A stretch of 34,559 nucleotides of DNA from Candidatus Gastranaerophilales bacterium (GTDB lineage Bacteria; Cyanobacteriota; Vampirovibrionia; Gastranaerophilales; Gastranaerophilaceae): NCBI GenBank assembly GCA_944323875.1, contig CALUUH010000019.1, forward strand, positions 1-34,559. The letters are read 5' to 3'. Both the position numbers and the translations under genes were made by a program. The notes beneath the pieces were generated by a model. It was not told the origin of the DNA and ran no database searches. It saw only the letters and a list, made by a program, of their open reading frames with translations. The first letter of the stretch is position 1, and every line of letters begins with the position of its first letter. Positions 4,822 through 25,328 of the stretch are shown one piece after another.

Positions 4822-4877
4822 CGGCCCAAGGCACTAAGGAGTTTATGAACTCGTTAGGACGATAAGTTCGTTAATGA

Positions 4878-4917
4878 GTGACTAGGTGATTAGGTGATTG
4901 AGTGACTAAGTGGTTAC
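4878..4917 (+). repeat. 8-bp tandem array, left copy
   Basis: Five consecutive 8-base units: GTGACTAG, GTGATTAG, GTGATTGA, GTGACTAA, GTGGTTAC. The reverse complement has the pattern nnA(A/G)TCAC and aligns with the array at 5448-5475, both being preceded by TAACC. Confidence 0.85.
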
Positions 4918-5403: not shown

Positions 5404-5475
5404 TTCACGGTTCACTGTTCACAGTTCACAATTTTGTAACCCCTTAGTCACTTATTCACCTAGTCACTTAATCAC
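5404..5475. repeat. 7-bp array (TTCACnG) followed by right copy of the 8-bp array
   Basis: Four 7-base units TTCACGG, TTCACTG, TTCACAG, TTCACAA occupy 5404-5431. After a short spacer come TCACTTAT, TCACCTAG, TCACTTAA and TCAC at 5448-5475, which repeat every 8 bases. This second part is the inverted partner of 4878-4917 and is also related to the array inside the gene at 18817. Confidence 0.85.
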
Positions 5476-5477
5476 GT

Positions 5478-5504
5478 CCAACTAAGGCCAAAGCCCTTAG
5501 TTGG
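5478..5504 (-). terminator. Hairpin overlapping the pseudopilin stop codon (weak terminator)
   Basis: CCAACTAAGG (5478-5487) pairs perfectly with CCTTAGTTGG (5495-5504). The stop codon at 5497-5499 lies inside the stem. No U-tract follows in the direction of transcription, so intrinsic termination is doubtful; protection of the mRNA 3' end is an alternative. Confidence 0.4.
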
Positions 5505-6555
5505 AGATGCACACAGCGCGGCCGCTACTGTAGTTCTTGTGGTTCCAGTAACCTTCACTGCCGTTCGTGTTGGTAGCGTAGAAGCGCCGGTAGTACGCGA
5601 AGTTAGCATTGTACTCCTCACTGGACCAGTAGTAGTAGCCATTGTATTTGATTGGAGGATTTTGTTGGTATTCGTCCTTTACTTTTAGTCCGCTTTTGTA
5701 TTCGCTTGCTCCTATTGTCACTTCGCTTCCATCGCTTGCGTTTACATATAATTCACTTGCTAATTGTGCTAATTGCGCTCTCGTAGGTAAAGTCATGTTC
5801 TTCTCTTGACAAGTTAATTTCGCTCCTGCCCAATAATTTCTAGAACAGTAACTTCTATTTCCATGCATTTCTTCCATATCTTCGTATTGGCTACCTACGC
5901 AAGTATCAATTGCTCTATTCACTTGGAACTCTGTTGACCAGCACATGTCGCCTATCGGGTTATCGCAGGTTGAGAATGCTACGCCGGAAGATAATTGAAT
6001 ATCTTTCCCAACTCTATTAGGCCCTTTCTTTCCGTTTACATCTACCATATATCCCATACAGCTTACTTGACTACCTGTATCTTCTATAGGGTCAGCATAA
6101 GGGCATTCTTTCTGGTATGCCATAATAACTGTTGTACCGTCAGCTACAACAAATGACATTGTATTTGTATTAGTCTGCCAGTCGCTAAGTCCCATGCTGG
6201 ACGCGCTTGTAAGGCTGTCTGTTTCAACTTCCATAGGTTCTTCGTTGCTTCCTGTTGTTACGACTTTAGGAGAATAGCATTTATTAATATCTGTGTTGTC
6301 ACAGGTTTTAATAACTTTCATATATTGTTTGAAAGTGTCCATAAAGTCCTCTGTAGAGTCGTGCCCTGTCATGACGCCGTCTGTGTTCATGCGGCGAACT
6401 GTTTCAGTGAGTTTCTTTTCCCAGAGATCTTTAGCCGTAGACCATGCCTTCTCGTTATGGTTCTGTATGAGCCCCGGAAGTGTCATTGCGGCAACTATTC
6501 CGATAACCGCTAAGGTGATTAATACTTCAGCCAAAGTGAAAGCTTTCTTTTTCAT
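5497..6555 (-). CDS. Large type IV pilin-like protein with C-terminal DUF1566/Lcl-like domain
   Basis: A 352-residue protein. The leader MKKKAFTLAEVLITLAVIGIV is a class III prepilin signal: short basic peptide, predicted cleavage Ala5|Phe6, Glu10 as Glu5 of the mature protein, then a hydrophobic helix. The usual Gly at -1 is Ala. The middle is Cys-rich (for example ECPYADP, CSTEF-like segments), which suggests disulfides outside the cell. The last ~100 residues, with LPTRAQLAQLASELY, YYYWSSEEYNANFAYYRRF and a terminal GRAVCIS, resemble the DUF1566/Lcl C-terminal domain of surface adhesins. AGGAG at 6562-6566 sits 6 bases from the ATG. It is transcribed away from the XRE gene, whose palindromic site overlaps its predicted start of transcription. 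The pilus subunit or adhesin role is inferred. Confidence 0.8.
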   Translation of the reverse strand: MKKKAFTLAEVLITLAVIGIVAAMTLPGLIQNHNEKAWSTAKDLWEKKLTETVRRMNTDGVMTGHDSTEDFMDTFKQYMKVIKTCDNTDINKCYSPKVVTTGSNEEPMEVETDSLTSASSMGLSDWQTNTNTMSFVVADGTTVIMAYQKECPYADPIEDTGSQVSCMGYMVDVNGKKGPNRVGKDIQLSSGVAFSTCDNPIGDMCWSTEFQVNRAIDTCVGSQYEDMEEMHGNRSYCSRNYWAGAKLTCQEKNMTLPTRAQLAQLASELYVNASDGSEVTIGASEYKSGLKVKDEYQQNPPIKYNGYYYWSSEEYNANFAYYRRFYATNTNGSEGYWNHKNYSSGRAVCISN

Positions 6556-18746: not shown

Positions 18747-18775
18747 TTGAAAACTTATTTAATATATGCTATAAT
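18747..18775 (+). promoter_or_regulatory. Strong promoter of the prepilin-S74 gene
   Basis: TTGAAA (18747-18752), 17 bases, TATAAT (18770-18775) with a TGC extension. This is the best promoter in the window by eye. Transcription would start near 18782, giving a 35-base leader to ATG 18817. Confidence 0.7.
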
Positions 18776-18816
18776 GATACTATAAGTTTGAAATCTTAAT
18801 GGAGATAAAAGATAGT

Positions 18817-19917
18817 ATGAAAAGAATAAAAAATCACTTAATCACTCAATCACACAGTCACTCAGTCACTTATAAAAAAGCATTTACACTTGCGGAAGTT
18901 ATGGTCGTATTATTCGTTTTAACGGTTATTCTGGCGGCATTTGCGCCGATGATGACAACCAGAACAAAAGTAAATAAAACATCTCCGTGGACTTATGCCT
19001 CACCAGATACAGCAAACGCGTATTTTGGTATGGGGCCTAATCAAACCGTTATGATTGGACAAAAAACAAAACCCGCAACAGATCTGGCGAACAGATTAAC
19101 TGTTAACACAAGCGCAGCAACTCAGGCGCACATGCTTTTTAAACAGGGGACAAATATTCTCGGACAGTTAAACTTAAACAATGACAGTGTTGTTCTTGGC
19201 GGAAGCCGTGAGGCGCTGGCAAGCGGGTCAGGTAACTCTGCAATAGGTGTTGAAGCCCTTAAACTCAATACTGACGGTACAAATAATACTGCAATAGGTT
19301 ATCAGGCAATGTTAAACAATGCAACGGGCGGCTTTAACACTGCTGTCGGTACACTGGCGCTTTCTGACAGCACTGCAGGCTCATACAGTACAGCGCTCGG
19401 ATACAATGCATGTGACGGCGTTAATGCAAATTACACAACATGTATCGGTGCATTTTCCGGCCCGAATACGCCTGTAGATGGCGCGGTTAATGATGTTTAT
19501 ATCGGTAATACCAATTCAAACGTTATGGTTTACGGTGTGACCGAGTTGAGAACATTGATTGAGGCATCTGACATCCGTTTGAAAAATGTCAAAGATGAAA
19601 GCACTGACGGACTTGACAAAATAAAACAAATAAAAACATACAATTATACATTCAAAAACGATAAAGAGAAAACTCCGCGTGTCGGGGTCATGGCGCAGGA
19701 TTTGAAAAAAATCTTCCCTAATGCTGTGACAGAATCAAAAGACGGTTATCTTAAAATCCGCAAAGAAGATATGTTCTATGCTATGATTAATGCAATAAAA
19801 GAACTGGCTAATAAAGACAGCGAAAAAGATTTACAGATAAAAGCTCTCGAAAAGAAAAATGCAGAACTCGAAGCGCGTCTTGAAAAGCTTGAAAAAAAGC
19901 TGAAAGAAGATAAGTAA
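18817..19917 (+). CDS. Prepilin with YadA-like head repeats and C-terminal S74 chaperone domain
   Basis: 366 residues in four parts. 1-22: leader encoded partly by an 8-bp array (HLITQSHSHSVTY). 23-45: prepilin helix FTLAEVMVVLFVLTVILA, cleavage Ala22|Phe23, Glu27. About 140-215: five repeats of a 17-residue N-S/T-AIG-x2-AL unit (NSAIGVEAL, NTAIGYQAM, NTAVGTLAL, STALGYNAC, TTCIGAFSG), like trimeric autotransporter heads. 251-366: a peptidase S74/intramolecular chaperone domain starting at the SDIRLK cleavage motif (Ser251-Asp252), with VGVMAQDLKKIFP, YLKIRKEDM and an IKEL helix, ending in a charged coiled coil. S74 domains assist trimer folding and cut themselves off in phage tail spikes. ATG 18817 is 12 bases from GGAG; ATG 18799 is an alternative without a Shine-Dalgarno. 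The function is probably a surface fibre or adhesin. Confidence 0.85.
   Translation: MKRIKNHLITQSHSHSVTYKKAFTLAEVMVVLFVLTVILAAFAPMMTTRTKVNKTSPWTYASPDTANAYFGMGPNQTVMIGQKTKPATDLANRLTVNTSAATQAHMLFKQGTNILGQLNLNNDSVVLGGSREALASGSGNSAIGVEALKLNTDGTNNTAIGYQAMLNNATGGFNTAVGTLALSDSTAGSYSTALGYNACDGVNANYTTCIGAFSGPNTPVDGAVNDVYIGNTNSNVMVYGVTELRTLIEASDIRLKNVKDESTDGLDKIKQIKTYNYTFKNDKEKTPRVGVMAQDLKKIFPNAVTESKDGYLKIRKEDMFYAMINAIKELANKDSEKDLQIKALEKKNAELEARLEKLEKKLKEDK
18834..18872 (+). repeat. 8-bp tandem array inside the prepilin-S74 reading frame
   Basis: TCAC recurs at 18834, 18842, 18850, 18858 and 18866, exactly every 8 bases: TCACTTAA, TCACTCAA, TCACACAG, TCACTCAG, TCACTTA. The unit is the same type as in the arrays at 4878 and 5448. 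It lies between the ATG and the prepilin cleavage site; both other reading frames meet stops soon after it. Confidence 0.9.
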
Positions 19918-19940: not shown

Positions 19941-19975
19941 GGGGCGAATTGCTAAAAGCAATTCGCCCCTTTCTG
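19941..19975 (+). terminator. Intrinsic terminator of the prepilin-S74 gene
   Basis: GGGGCGAATTGC (19941-19952), loop TAAAA, GCAATTCGCCCC (19958-19969), then TTTCT: a perfect 12-bp stem with a short T-rich tail. Confidence 0.8.
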
Positions 19976-23234: not shown

Positions 23235-25328
23235 TTACTCCATAGCGTAAGCTTCGCCGATTGTGTCGACCGCTTCAACTTTGATATCCGTAATCAATTC
23301 TGAATAAGAGATTACAACGATTGTCGGAATATGACGTTCCAGAAGCTGATACAACGGAAGCCGTATTCTTGGCGAACACAATATTACAGGCTGCTGTCCG
23401 CATGCCTGATGTGCACGCATCAAAGTCGTTGCAGCGCTTTCAATAAGCTCCTGTACCTGCATAGGATTCAACAGGAACATTGTACCTAACTCTGTTCTCT
23501 GACAACTGTCATCAAGTGTTTTTTCCCATTCAGGAGAAAGCGTCAACGCATACAAAACCTTATCTTCCTGAACATTAGACAAACAAATCTGACGTCCTAA
23601 TGCCGCACGCAGACGTTCGGACAAAATATCCGGCTCTTTAGAAAACCTTGCGTAATCACAAAGTCTTTCAAATACAAAGATAATATCCTTAATTGAAACT
23701 TTTTCTCTGATTAAGTTAACAAAGATTTTTCTCAAGTCACTGGTTGAAATAATAGTCGGAACAAGGTCATTAACAAGCGTAGGGTCTTGAGAACGAACAA
23801 GCTCCATAAGCTTGAGGACATCGGTTTTTGTCATTACTTCATCAACGTGTTTTCTTACACATTCCTGTAAGTGAGTAACGATTACGTCAGTAGCATCAAC
23901 CGCAGTAACAGAACGAGCAGTTTTTGCATCATCTGCAGAGATCCAGTAAGCTTGTGTCTGATAAGTCGGGTCAATACCGATAATAGCATCGTCAGGCACT
24001 TCGCGTCGTGTAGAATCCCACTGGTCAGCAATTACCATGAATTTACCCGGATAAACATAACCGGTTGCAACTGTATTACCACGAATGGATATCATATATT
24101 CATTCGCGTCAAGTGCAGACGAATCCATAATTCTTATGTTCGGGATGATATAACCCAATTCATCCGTAACTCTTTGACGCAAAGCAGCAATTTTAGCAAG
24201 CAATTGACCTTCCTGATCCGGATCGGCAATAACAAGCAGGTTAGAACCTACCTGCAAACTCAAAGTATCAACACCCAAACGTTCATACATTCTGTTCGGG
24301 TTAACAAGGTCTTGCATGTTTTGACGTACATTTTCCAACTGACCCAATTGAGATTGAACATCCGCATTAATCAATACAGAGAAGCCGGCAATGCCAAGAC
24401 CGATTGCGAACAATGTAAACGGAAGCCAAGGTAAACCGGTAACAGGGCCTGTAATGGCAAGAAGCATCAAGAAAGCTGAAGCAAAAAACAGAGCATGTGG
24501 TTTACTCATAATTTGTCCTGCTACATCAGCACCCAATGTAGCGCTTGCCGCTGATGAACGCGTCATGAATACACCGGCTGCAATTGACATCAAAAGTGAC
24601 GGAACCTGAGAGGCCAAACCATCACCAATCGTTAAGATTGTATATTTTGAAACCGCATCAGCCGCCGGCATACCGTTTAGCAAACACCCGATACACAAGC
24701 CGCCGACAATGTTAATAATTACGATAATAATACCTGCAATAGTATCCCCTTTTACGAACTTCATCGCACCATCCATACTACCAAACAGGTTTGATTCTCT
24801 TTGCAAATCTTCACGCTTTTTAGTTGCTTCTTCCGGTGAGATTAAGCCGGCGTTAAAGTCAGCGTCGATTGTCATTTGTTTACCGGGCATAGCGTCCAAT
24901 GCAAATCTGGCCGCAACTTCCGCGATACGTTCGGCACCTTTTGTGATAACCATGAACTGTACAACCGTGATAATAAGGAAAATTACACCACCGACGATCA
25001 TGTTACCGCCGGTTACGAATGTCCCGAACGCGTGGATAACTTCGCCCGCCTCACCCTTTGCAAGAATAAGTCTTGTTGATGCAATAGAAAGACACAACCT
25101 AAACATTGTACCAATCAGGATAATTGACGGGAAGGAGGATAGTTCCAGCGTTTTCTGAACATACAGGGCAAACATCAATAAGACAATCCCGAGTGTAATG
25201 TTAAGACAGATACAAACGTTAATAATCCAGTTTGGTAATTCTACCAACAGGATTACAATGAGGAACAGTACGAATACTGCCATAAATATTTCACTTAATG
25301 GATTTCCTCCGCTTTGTGCCTGTGCCAT
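23235..25328 (-). CDS. flhA: Flagellar export gate protein FlhA
   Basis: A 697-residue inner-membrane component of the flagellar type III export gate. The first ~320 residues hold about 8 hydrophobic helices with the conserved loop STRLILAKGEAGEVIHAFGTFV and the FHIPEP region RFALDAMPGKQMTIDADFNAGLI. The C-terminal cytoplasmic ring domain (about 350-697) binds export chaperones; MDSSALDANEYMISIRG and LARNG-like helices are present. The ATG overlaps the fliH stop by one base (TAATG). flhB and flhF, common neighbours elsewhere, are absent. yidD follows. Confidence 0.96.
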   Translation of the reverse strand: MAQAQSGGNPLSEIFMAVFVLFLIVILLVELPNWIINVCICLNITLGIVLLMFALYVQKTLELSSFPSIILIGTMFRLCLSIASTRLILAKGEAGEVIHAFGTFVTGGNMIVGGVIFLIITVVQFMVITKGAERIAEVAARFALDAMPGKQMTIDADFNAGLISPEEATKKREDLQRESNLFGSMDGAMKFVKGDTIAGIIIVIINIVGGLCIGCLLNGMPAADAVSKYTILTIGDGLASQVPSLLMSIAAGVFMTRSSAASATLGADVAGQIMSKPHALFFASAFLMLLAITGPVTGLPWLPFTLFAIGLGIAGFSVLINADVQSQLGQLENVRQNMQDLVNPNRMYERLGVDTLSLQVGSNLLVIADPDQEGQLLAKIAALRQRVTDELGYIIPNIRIMDSSALDANEYMISIRGNTVATGYVYPGKFMVIADQWDSTRREVPDDAIIGIDPTYQTQAYWISADDAKTARSVTAVDATDVIVTHLQECVRKHVDEVMTKTDVLKLMELVRSQDPTLVNDLVPTIISTSDLRKIFVNLIREKVSIKDIIFVFERLCDYARFSKEPDILSERLRAALGRQICLSNVQEDKVLYALTLSPEWEKTLDDSCQRTELGTMFLLNPMQVQELIESAATTLMRAHQACGQQPVILCSPRIRLPLYQLLERHIPTIVVISYSELITDIKVEAVDTIGEAYAME

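Follow-up and report, generated by a model that had tools for sequence, protein, structure and literature searches.

The gene at positions 18817-19917 of the window, by which we mean the whole 34,559-nucleotide stretch of a Candidatus Gastranaerophilales genome analysed here, raises the question of what a bacterium would do with a protein that begins like a prepilin and ends like a phage fibre. The first-pass annotation had placed a leader, a YadA-type head and an S74 domain within this one gene, and profile searches and fold comparison bore it out. The elements on which it had relied, namely a start at 18817, a leader with FTLAEV, five 17-residue units, SDIRLK and a C-terminal coiled coil, were all present. 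The features of the gene and its flanks are as follows.

18747..18775, + strand: promoter-like site, TTGAAA-17-TATAAT with TG before the -10 hexamer (consensus scan, 11/12 matches); only suggestive, because such sites are no commoner than in shuffles
18817..19917, + strand: CDS of the prepilin-S74 fusion, 366 aa (open reading frame, orthologues in the genus)
18817..18882, + strand: class III (prepilin) leader, 22 residues, ending at Ala28, or Ala22 counted from 18817 (PF07963)
18832..18870, + strand: octamer array (AATCACTC), 4.9 copies, inside the leader, encoding about NHLITQSHSHSVT (Tandem Repeats Finder)
18883..18957, + strand: hydrophobic pilin helix, residues 29-53, with Glu33 as mature position 5 (model and conservation)
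18958..19218, + strand: linker and beta-rich region, residues 54-140 (low confidence at 54-110, strands from about 100)
19219..19536, + strand: YadA-like head, residues 141-246, five 17-residue units and then a short stalk (periodicity, model and fold match)
19567..19761, + strand: core of the S74/intramolecular chaperone (ICA) domain, residues 257-321 (PF13884, dyad and MyRF match)
19762..19911, + strand: C-terminal coiled-coil helix, residues 322-371 (pLDDT 90-96)
19941..19969, + strand: terminator-like hairpin, 13-pair stem with a T-rich tail (consensus scan)

The open reading frame comprises 372 codons from the ATG at 18799 or 366 from the ATG at 18817, and its stop lies at 19917. Residues are numbered here on the window protein (P0001) from the in-frame ATG at 18799 (372 aa); subtracting 6 gives the 18817-based numbering (366 aa). 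The ATG at 18817 is the likelier start, because in L006, a relative of the same genus, a TAA closes the frame of the upstream ATG (ATGGAGATAAAATAA), and the second ATG is kept. With the promoter-like site and the hairpin on its flanks, the gene appears to form a transcription unit by itself. No pilus operon was seen around it; the surroundings are housekeeping genes, and the neighbours (a sodium:alanine symporter, uracil-DNA glycosylase, MatE, NDK and TGT) include several common to the loci of close relatives. An FHIPEP (FlhA-type) export gene is also found in the window (23235-25328, - strand).

The Pfam scan of the window protein gave N_methyl (PF07963) at 23.7 bits against a cut-off of 21.2, and TIGR02532 was likewise above its cut-off. 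The leader motif is KKAFTLAEV, with a predicted cut at A28|F29 (A22|F23 in the 18817-based numbering, A|FTLAE), and the class III features of Gly/Ala before an aromatic residue, Glu5 and about 20 hydrophobic residues are all found. The results showed that Glu33 was invariant across the 45 fusion proteins described below, a partly circular result since the selection motif required Glu5. The pilin helix was modelled at residues 31-52/53 with a pLDDT of about 85-90, and residues 29-56 were identical in 5/5 genus orthologues. No pilin beta-sheet domain was recognisable after the helix in the model, and this, together with the low confidence of residues 54-110, makes the packing in a filament uncertain. 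Among five genus orthologues, dN/dS was 0.006 for the pilin helix, 0.07 for S74, 0.11 for the head and 0.71 for the leader, and 0.05-0.16 across linker, head, stalk, S74 and coil, values that are rough because dS is near saturation. Such a difference between leader and mature part would be expected if the leader is cleaved off and the mature protein has a function.

The octamer array of the leader has about five units in the window gene, versus about 0-2 in the genus orthologues, and octamers of this family also precede many other prepilin leaders of the genome (G000). Phase variation of the S74 pilin through octamer slippage in its leader remains a guess, because the three-unit (24-bp) difference keeps the frame. 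Arrays of the AATCACTC family, including its complement, were also found at 4877-4916 and 5443-5475 of the window, near a second prepilin gene (5497-6555, - strand, 352 aa) that belongs to a many-copy family with an N-terminal part nearly identical genome-wide.

Two structure models were compared. The first was built from the fusion proteins alone (45 rows) and reached a pLDDT of 62; Foldseek found no useful match to it among solved structures, and its best match in the viral-structure library was a phage ICA-domain protein. The second, a monomer, was built with viral S74 sequences added (60 sequences) and reached a pLDDT of 79.6. It showed a pilin helix, a head with a strand every 17 residues, and a well-modelled S74 domain with a terminal helix.

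The periodicity of the head was also evident in the protein sequence, in which 17 was the best among all periods from 5 to 29 (score 79, versus a maximum of 50 over 5000 shuffles) and the five units carry NSAIG/NTAIG/NTAVG/STALG/TTCIG. The YadA-like match proposed in the first-pass annotation held for relatives and for the structure, but not for a profile match of the window protein itself, which gave none to YadA_head (PF05658) at E up to 10; its repeats are 17 and not about 14 residues long. The scanned relatives with 17-residue repeats had no PF05658 match either. Three relatives with 14-residue repeats, L036 (one of three ORFs), L038 and L041, matched PF05658 at E 2e-14 to 1e-37, and there N_methyl, YadA_head and S74 occur within one protein; L040, with repeats like those of L038 and L041, was in the alignment and outside the Pfam-A scan of ten relatives. 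Comparison of the model by VIA-align with the structures on Foldseek's list gave Z 9.1-9.7 for the heads of UspA1, CbpF, YadA, BoaA and AtaA (UspA1 3ntn Z 9.7, YadA 1p9h Z 9.4, BoaA 3s6l Z 9.4); the fold class is firm, and the exact kinship or subfamily is less so because other left-handed beta-helix proteins reach Z 9.0. The window protein shares its head fold with the trimeric autotransporters YadA, UspA1, BoaA and CbpF, but differs from them in its N-terminal prepilin leader and helix and in a C-terminus of S74 and coiled coil, and the Pfam scan found no YadA beta-barrel anchor in it. A Cys pair at the end of the head was present in 31/45 fusions, compared with 1/36 viral relatives, which suggests an oxidising compartment.

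The S74 profile match that had been set as a test was found: Peptidase_S74 (PF13884) scored 55.2 bits (E 8.7e-15, cut-off 22). SDIRLK corresponds to Ser257...Lys262 (Ser251 in the 18817-based numbering), with Lys five residues after Ser, codons at 19567-19569 and 19582-19584, and a predicted cut just before Ser257. Ser257, Asp258 and Lys262 were invariant in 45/45 aligned fusions, and Tyr283, which aligns with a Tyr of MyRF, was Tyr or Phe in all 45. The only Foldseek matches of the second model under 0.001 were MyRF ICA chains (7dc3, E 2.5e-4). By VIA-align, the MyRF ICA (7dc3) reached Z 8.8 (3.1 A over 108), the endoNF chaperone (3gw6) Z 6.5 and the T5 fibre chaperone (4uw8) Z 5.8. A phmmer search against solved structures gave MyRF at E 1.4e-5 and a weak match (E 0.11) to 8hqz, a phage L-shaped tail fibre assembly; CofB and TcpB were absent among these matches.

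MyRF, the best solved-structure match of the S74 part, shares the spacing of the dyad (Ser, and Lys at +5), but it is a eukaryotic membrane-tethered transcription factor with another cargo and with its membrane segment C-terminal to the ICA. Its cleavage takes place N-terminal to the dyad Ser and requires the trimeric state (PMC8326128; PMC3742443), and its C-terminal ICA helix has a trimerisation role (PMC8326128). Helix 322-371 was present in both of our models, and by this comparison the coiled coil would be the usual C-terminal trimerisation helix of S74/ICA and no separate extra part. The phage endoNF and the T5 L-shaped fibre have the same arrangement of S74/ICA after a trimeric beta fibre, with a Ser-Lys dyad and a C-terminal helix; phage spikes and fibres, however, are virion parts without prepilin leader or pilin helix.

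The prepilin-S74 gene was present in 6/6 sampled genomes of the genus, in one of which the contig begins inside the gene. Scanning of GTDB contigs yielded 28 loci, and the titles of almost all of them read Gastranaerophilales, Melainabacteria or uncultured bacterium. Together with the loci of the same genus, these supplied 45 distinct complete ORFs with both leader motif and S74, that is, the window's own and 44 relatives, nearly all from Gastranaerophilales; identity to the window protein among the 45 was 31-100%. The Gastranaerophilales-type loci were judged on complete ORFs, leaving out those cut by a contig or locus end, and no homologue with the leader in a separate gene, as the first-pass annotation had asked, was seen: the motif is present in all 45, and a single further complete S74 ORF, L052:3847-5898, lacked a motif hit and begins KYTAFTVGELM, a variant leader. 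In the Pfam-A scan of ten relatives, S74 passed in 10/10 and N_methyl in 7/10, the other three scoring 13 to 20 bits versus 21.2. A profile of the 45 detected 33/79 near relatives and 0/9 genomes from the rest of the class at 1e-15, and 48/194 across the phylum, all of the same family, at 1e-20; since this profile may match head or S74 alone, these counts describe the family and do not establish that every matching genome has the fusion.

Copy number ranges from one in the source genome to many elsewhere, and several loci contain a tandem pair with a third S74 prepilin gene on the opposite strand. Neighbouring triples of this kind make heterotrimers possible. In L044 and L047 the triple has metK between its members; both loci also contain valS, and L047 an MFS transporter. 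In L049, a contig titled Muribaculaceae, the S74 prepilins group with the Gastranaerophilales ones, and the contig is perhaps misbinned.

The PHROGs matches of the window protein were mostly tail fibres and spikes, and the head and S74 module was also found in viral contigs and annotated phages; judged by sequence, this module is homologous to phage proteins. The leader was found in 0/71 complete viral S74 ORFs, and no phage record covering 80% of the window protein was found. In a tree of S74 domains (45 fusion, 26 viral and one Bacteroidota), the fusions formed one clade with support 99/97, a result read from 84 columns and from relatives picked by similarity to the query, a sampling that favours a single clade.

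The genome (G000) has one prepilin peptidase match (PF01478), a secretin (PF00263) adjoining a PilB-type ATPase, and further T2SSE-family (PF00437) ATPases. Its 1.94 Mb also hold 91 N_methyl matches, 87 of them over the cut-off (loci L009-L031, L146-L215); five sampled genomes of the family had 60-112, whereas the three sampled from other families had 2-12. In 48 of the 69 distinct prepilin ORFs examined in G000, the frame stays open for 61-250 codons ahead of the leader. These extensions are shared repeat mosaics (SLHSLLPLGEGGRRPDEG, LKQVQHDG, TRHKAAEPASCK and others; L009, L015, L020, L028, L029, L157, L197 and others), and it looks as if repeats were inserted in frame into a leader that is removed anyway.

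On this evidence, the window protein is in our view probably a type IV (minor) pilin of the modular kind. Its S74 domain would trimerise and fold the head and then cut itself off, leaving a trimeric adhesin, probably at a filament tip. The protein would insert in the inner membrane with its N-terminus in and its C-terminus out, and the genome's prepilin peptidase would cut at A28|F29. Three chains would associate outside the cytoplasm through their coiled coil and S74, which would direct the folding of the head into a trimeric beta-roll. Once the trimer had formed, Ser257/Lys262 would cut the chain before Ser257 and shed a 13.5-kDa chaperone, so that three 23.6-kDa chains (residues 29-256) would remain together as a trimer, every one of them combining a pilin helix and a YadA-like head. 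This trimer would then be displayed on the cell surface by the type IV pilus machine, as an adhesin and most likely at a filament tip. The analysis is consistent with cutting at both ends of the fusion protein, as the first-pass annotation had suggested, and leader, helix and genome content lead us to infer 'membrane extraction' of the protein into a pilus. CofB and TcpB offer a similar working, with a pilin module and a trimeric beta-rich distal part, but their distal fold is an H-type lectin-like domain 3 and not a YadA-like head; in the window protein, a phage-type head and a self-removing chaperone would replace the distal beta domains. To our knowledge, neither CofB nor TcpB has an S74 domain. 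Models place both of these homotrimeric minor pilins at the tip of type IVb pili (PMC9565799).

The main competitor, to which we give a minority share of belief, is a membrane-anchored trimeric fibre that is no filament subunit, in which leader and helix serve as export signal and inner-membrane anchor and the head is periplasmic or released. Such an anchor would fit the missing pilin beta domain and the lack of pilus genes nearby, and about 90 prepilin leaders, far above the need of one pilus, may mean that the leader is a general export route; yet a helix fully invariant across the genus goes beyond the needs of a plain anchor, Glu5 is kept, and the genome has the pilus ATPase, the secretin and the further T2SSE-family ATPases. 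It is unlikely that S74 acts as a trimerisation chaperone without cutting, or that a cut C-terminal trimer remains bound in the fibre, since loss of cutting would be expected to relax dyad Ser and Lys, which are invariant in all the fusions.

We regard it as very improbable that S74 targets other proteins as a peptidase effector, a role that the family name and the label 'predicted peptidase' in the catalogue of Raynaud et al. 2021 (PMC8179133) might imply, because the ICA/S74 domains that have been studied cut their own chain, after trimerisation, and a chaperone of this sort would suit the adjoining head, whose fold is known as a trimer. The homology of the head and S74 module to phage tail spikes and fibres could also point to a prophage tail-fibre gene or an assembly chimera with a chance leader. 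That reading is refuted by the orthologues and is scarcely credible: the gene occurs in every sampled genome of the genus with common neighbours, these are housekeeping genes, the leader is absent from the viral ORFs, and the S74 domains of the fusions form one clade. Chimera or pseudogene was rejected on the genus orthologues and purifying selection, and prophage origin of the whole gene on the leaderless viral ORFs and the housekeeping neighbours.

The claim that this architecture is undescribed stood only in part, as the pairing of prepilin and S74 was already catalogued by Raynaud et al. 2021 (PMC8179133). That paper distinguishes 264 modular-pilin architectures and discusses prepilin + S74 (IPR012902-IPR030392), under the label 'predicted peptidase', as one of the 15 that occur most often; the window gene, with an N-terminal prepilin motif and S74 in one protein, is a case of these modular pilins. 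Gastranaerophilales, Melainabacteria and cyanobacteria go unnamed in its main text as carriers of the pairing, and the passages on this architecture describe neither a YadA-like head nor a trimer logic. We found no functional study of prepilin + S74 in searches of an open-access library, which lacks most subscription papers. To the catalogued pairing, the present analysis adds its YadA-like head, its lineage, the grouping of the fusions in a single clade, and the trimer logic.

A modular pilin of this kind suggests a wider proposal, which we put forward tentatively and hold to be somewhat less probable than its opposite: that the phage ICA has become a maturation step, in which a self-removing trimerisation chaperone builds trimeric YadA-type adhesins loaded through the pilin pathway by two cuts, one by prepilin peptidase and one by self-cleavage, perhaps as heterotrimers in lineages with three genes. 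If true, the finding would join pili with the trimeric fibres of phages and autotransporters, usually separate worlds, and would offer an explanation, open to testing, of how a cell could make a trimeric adhesin for a type IV filament. It would also suggest that S74 in modular pilins is better understood as a self-removing folding chaperone than as a plain peptidase. For the organism, these results indicate a gut bacterial lineage with an unusually large prepilin repertoire.
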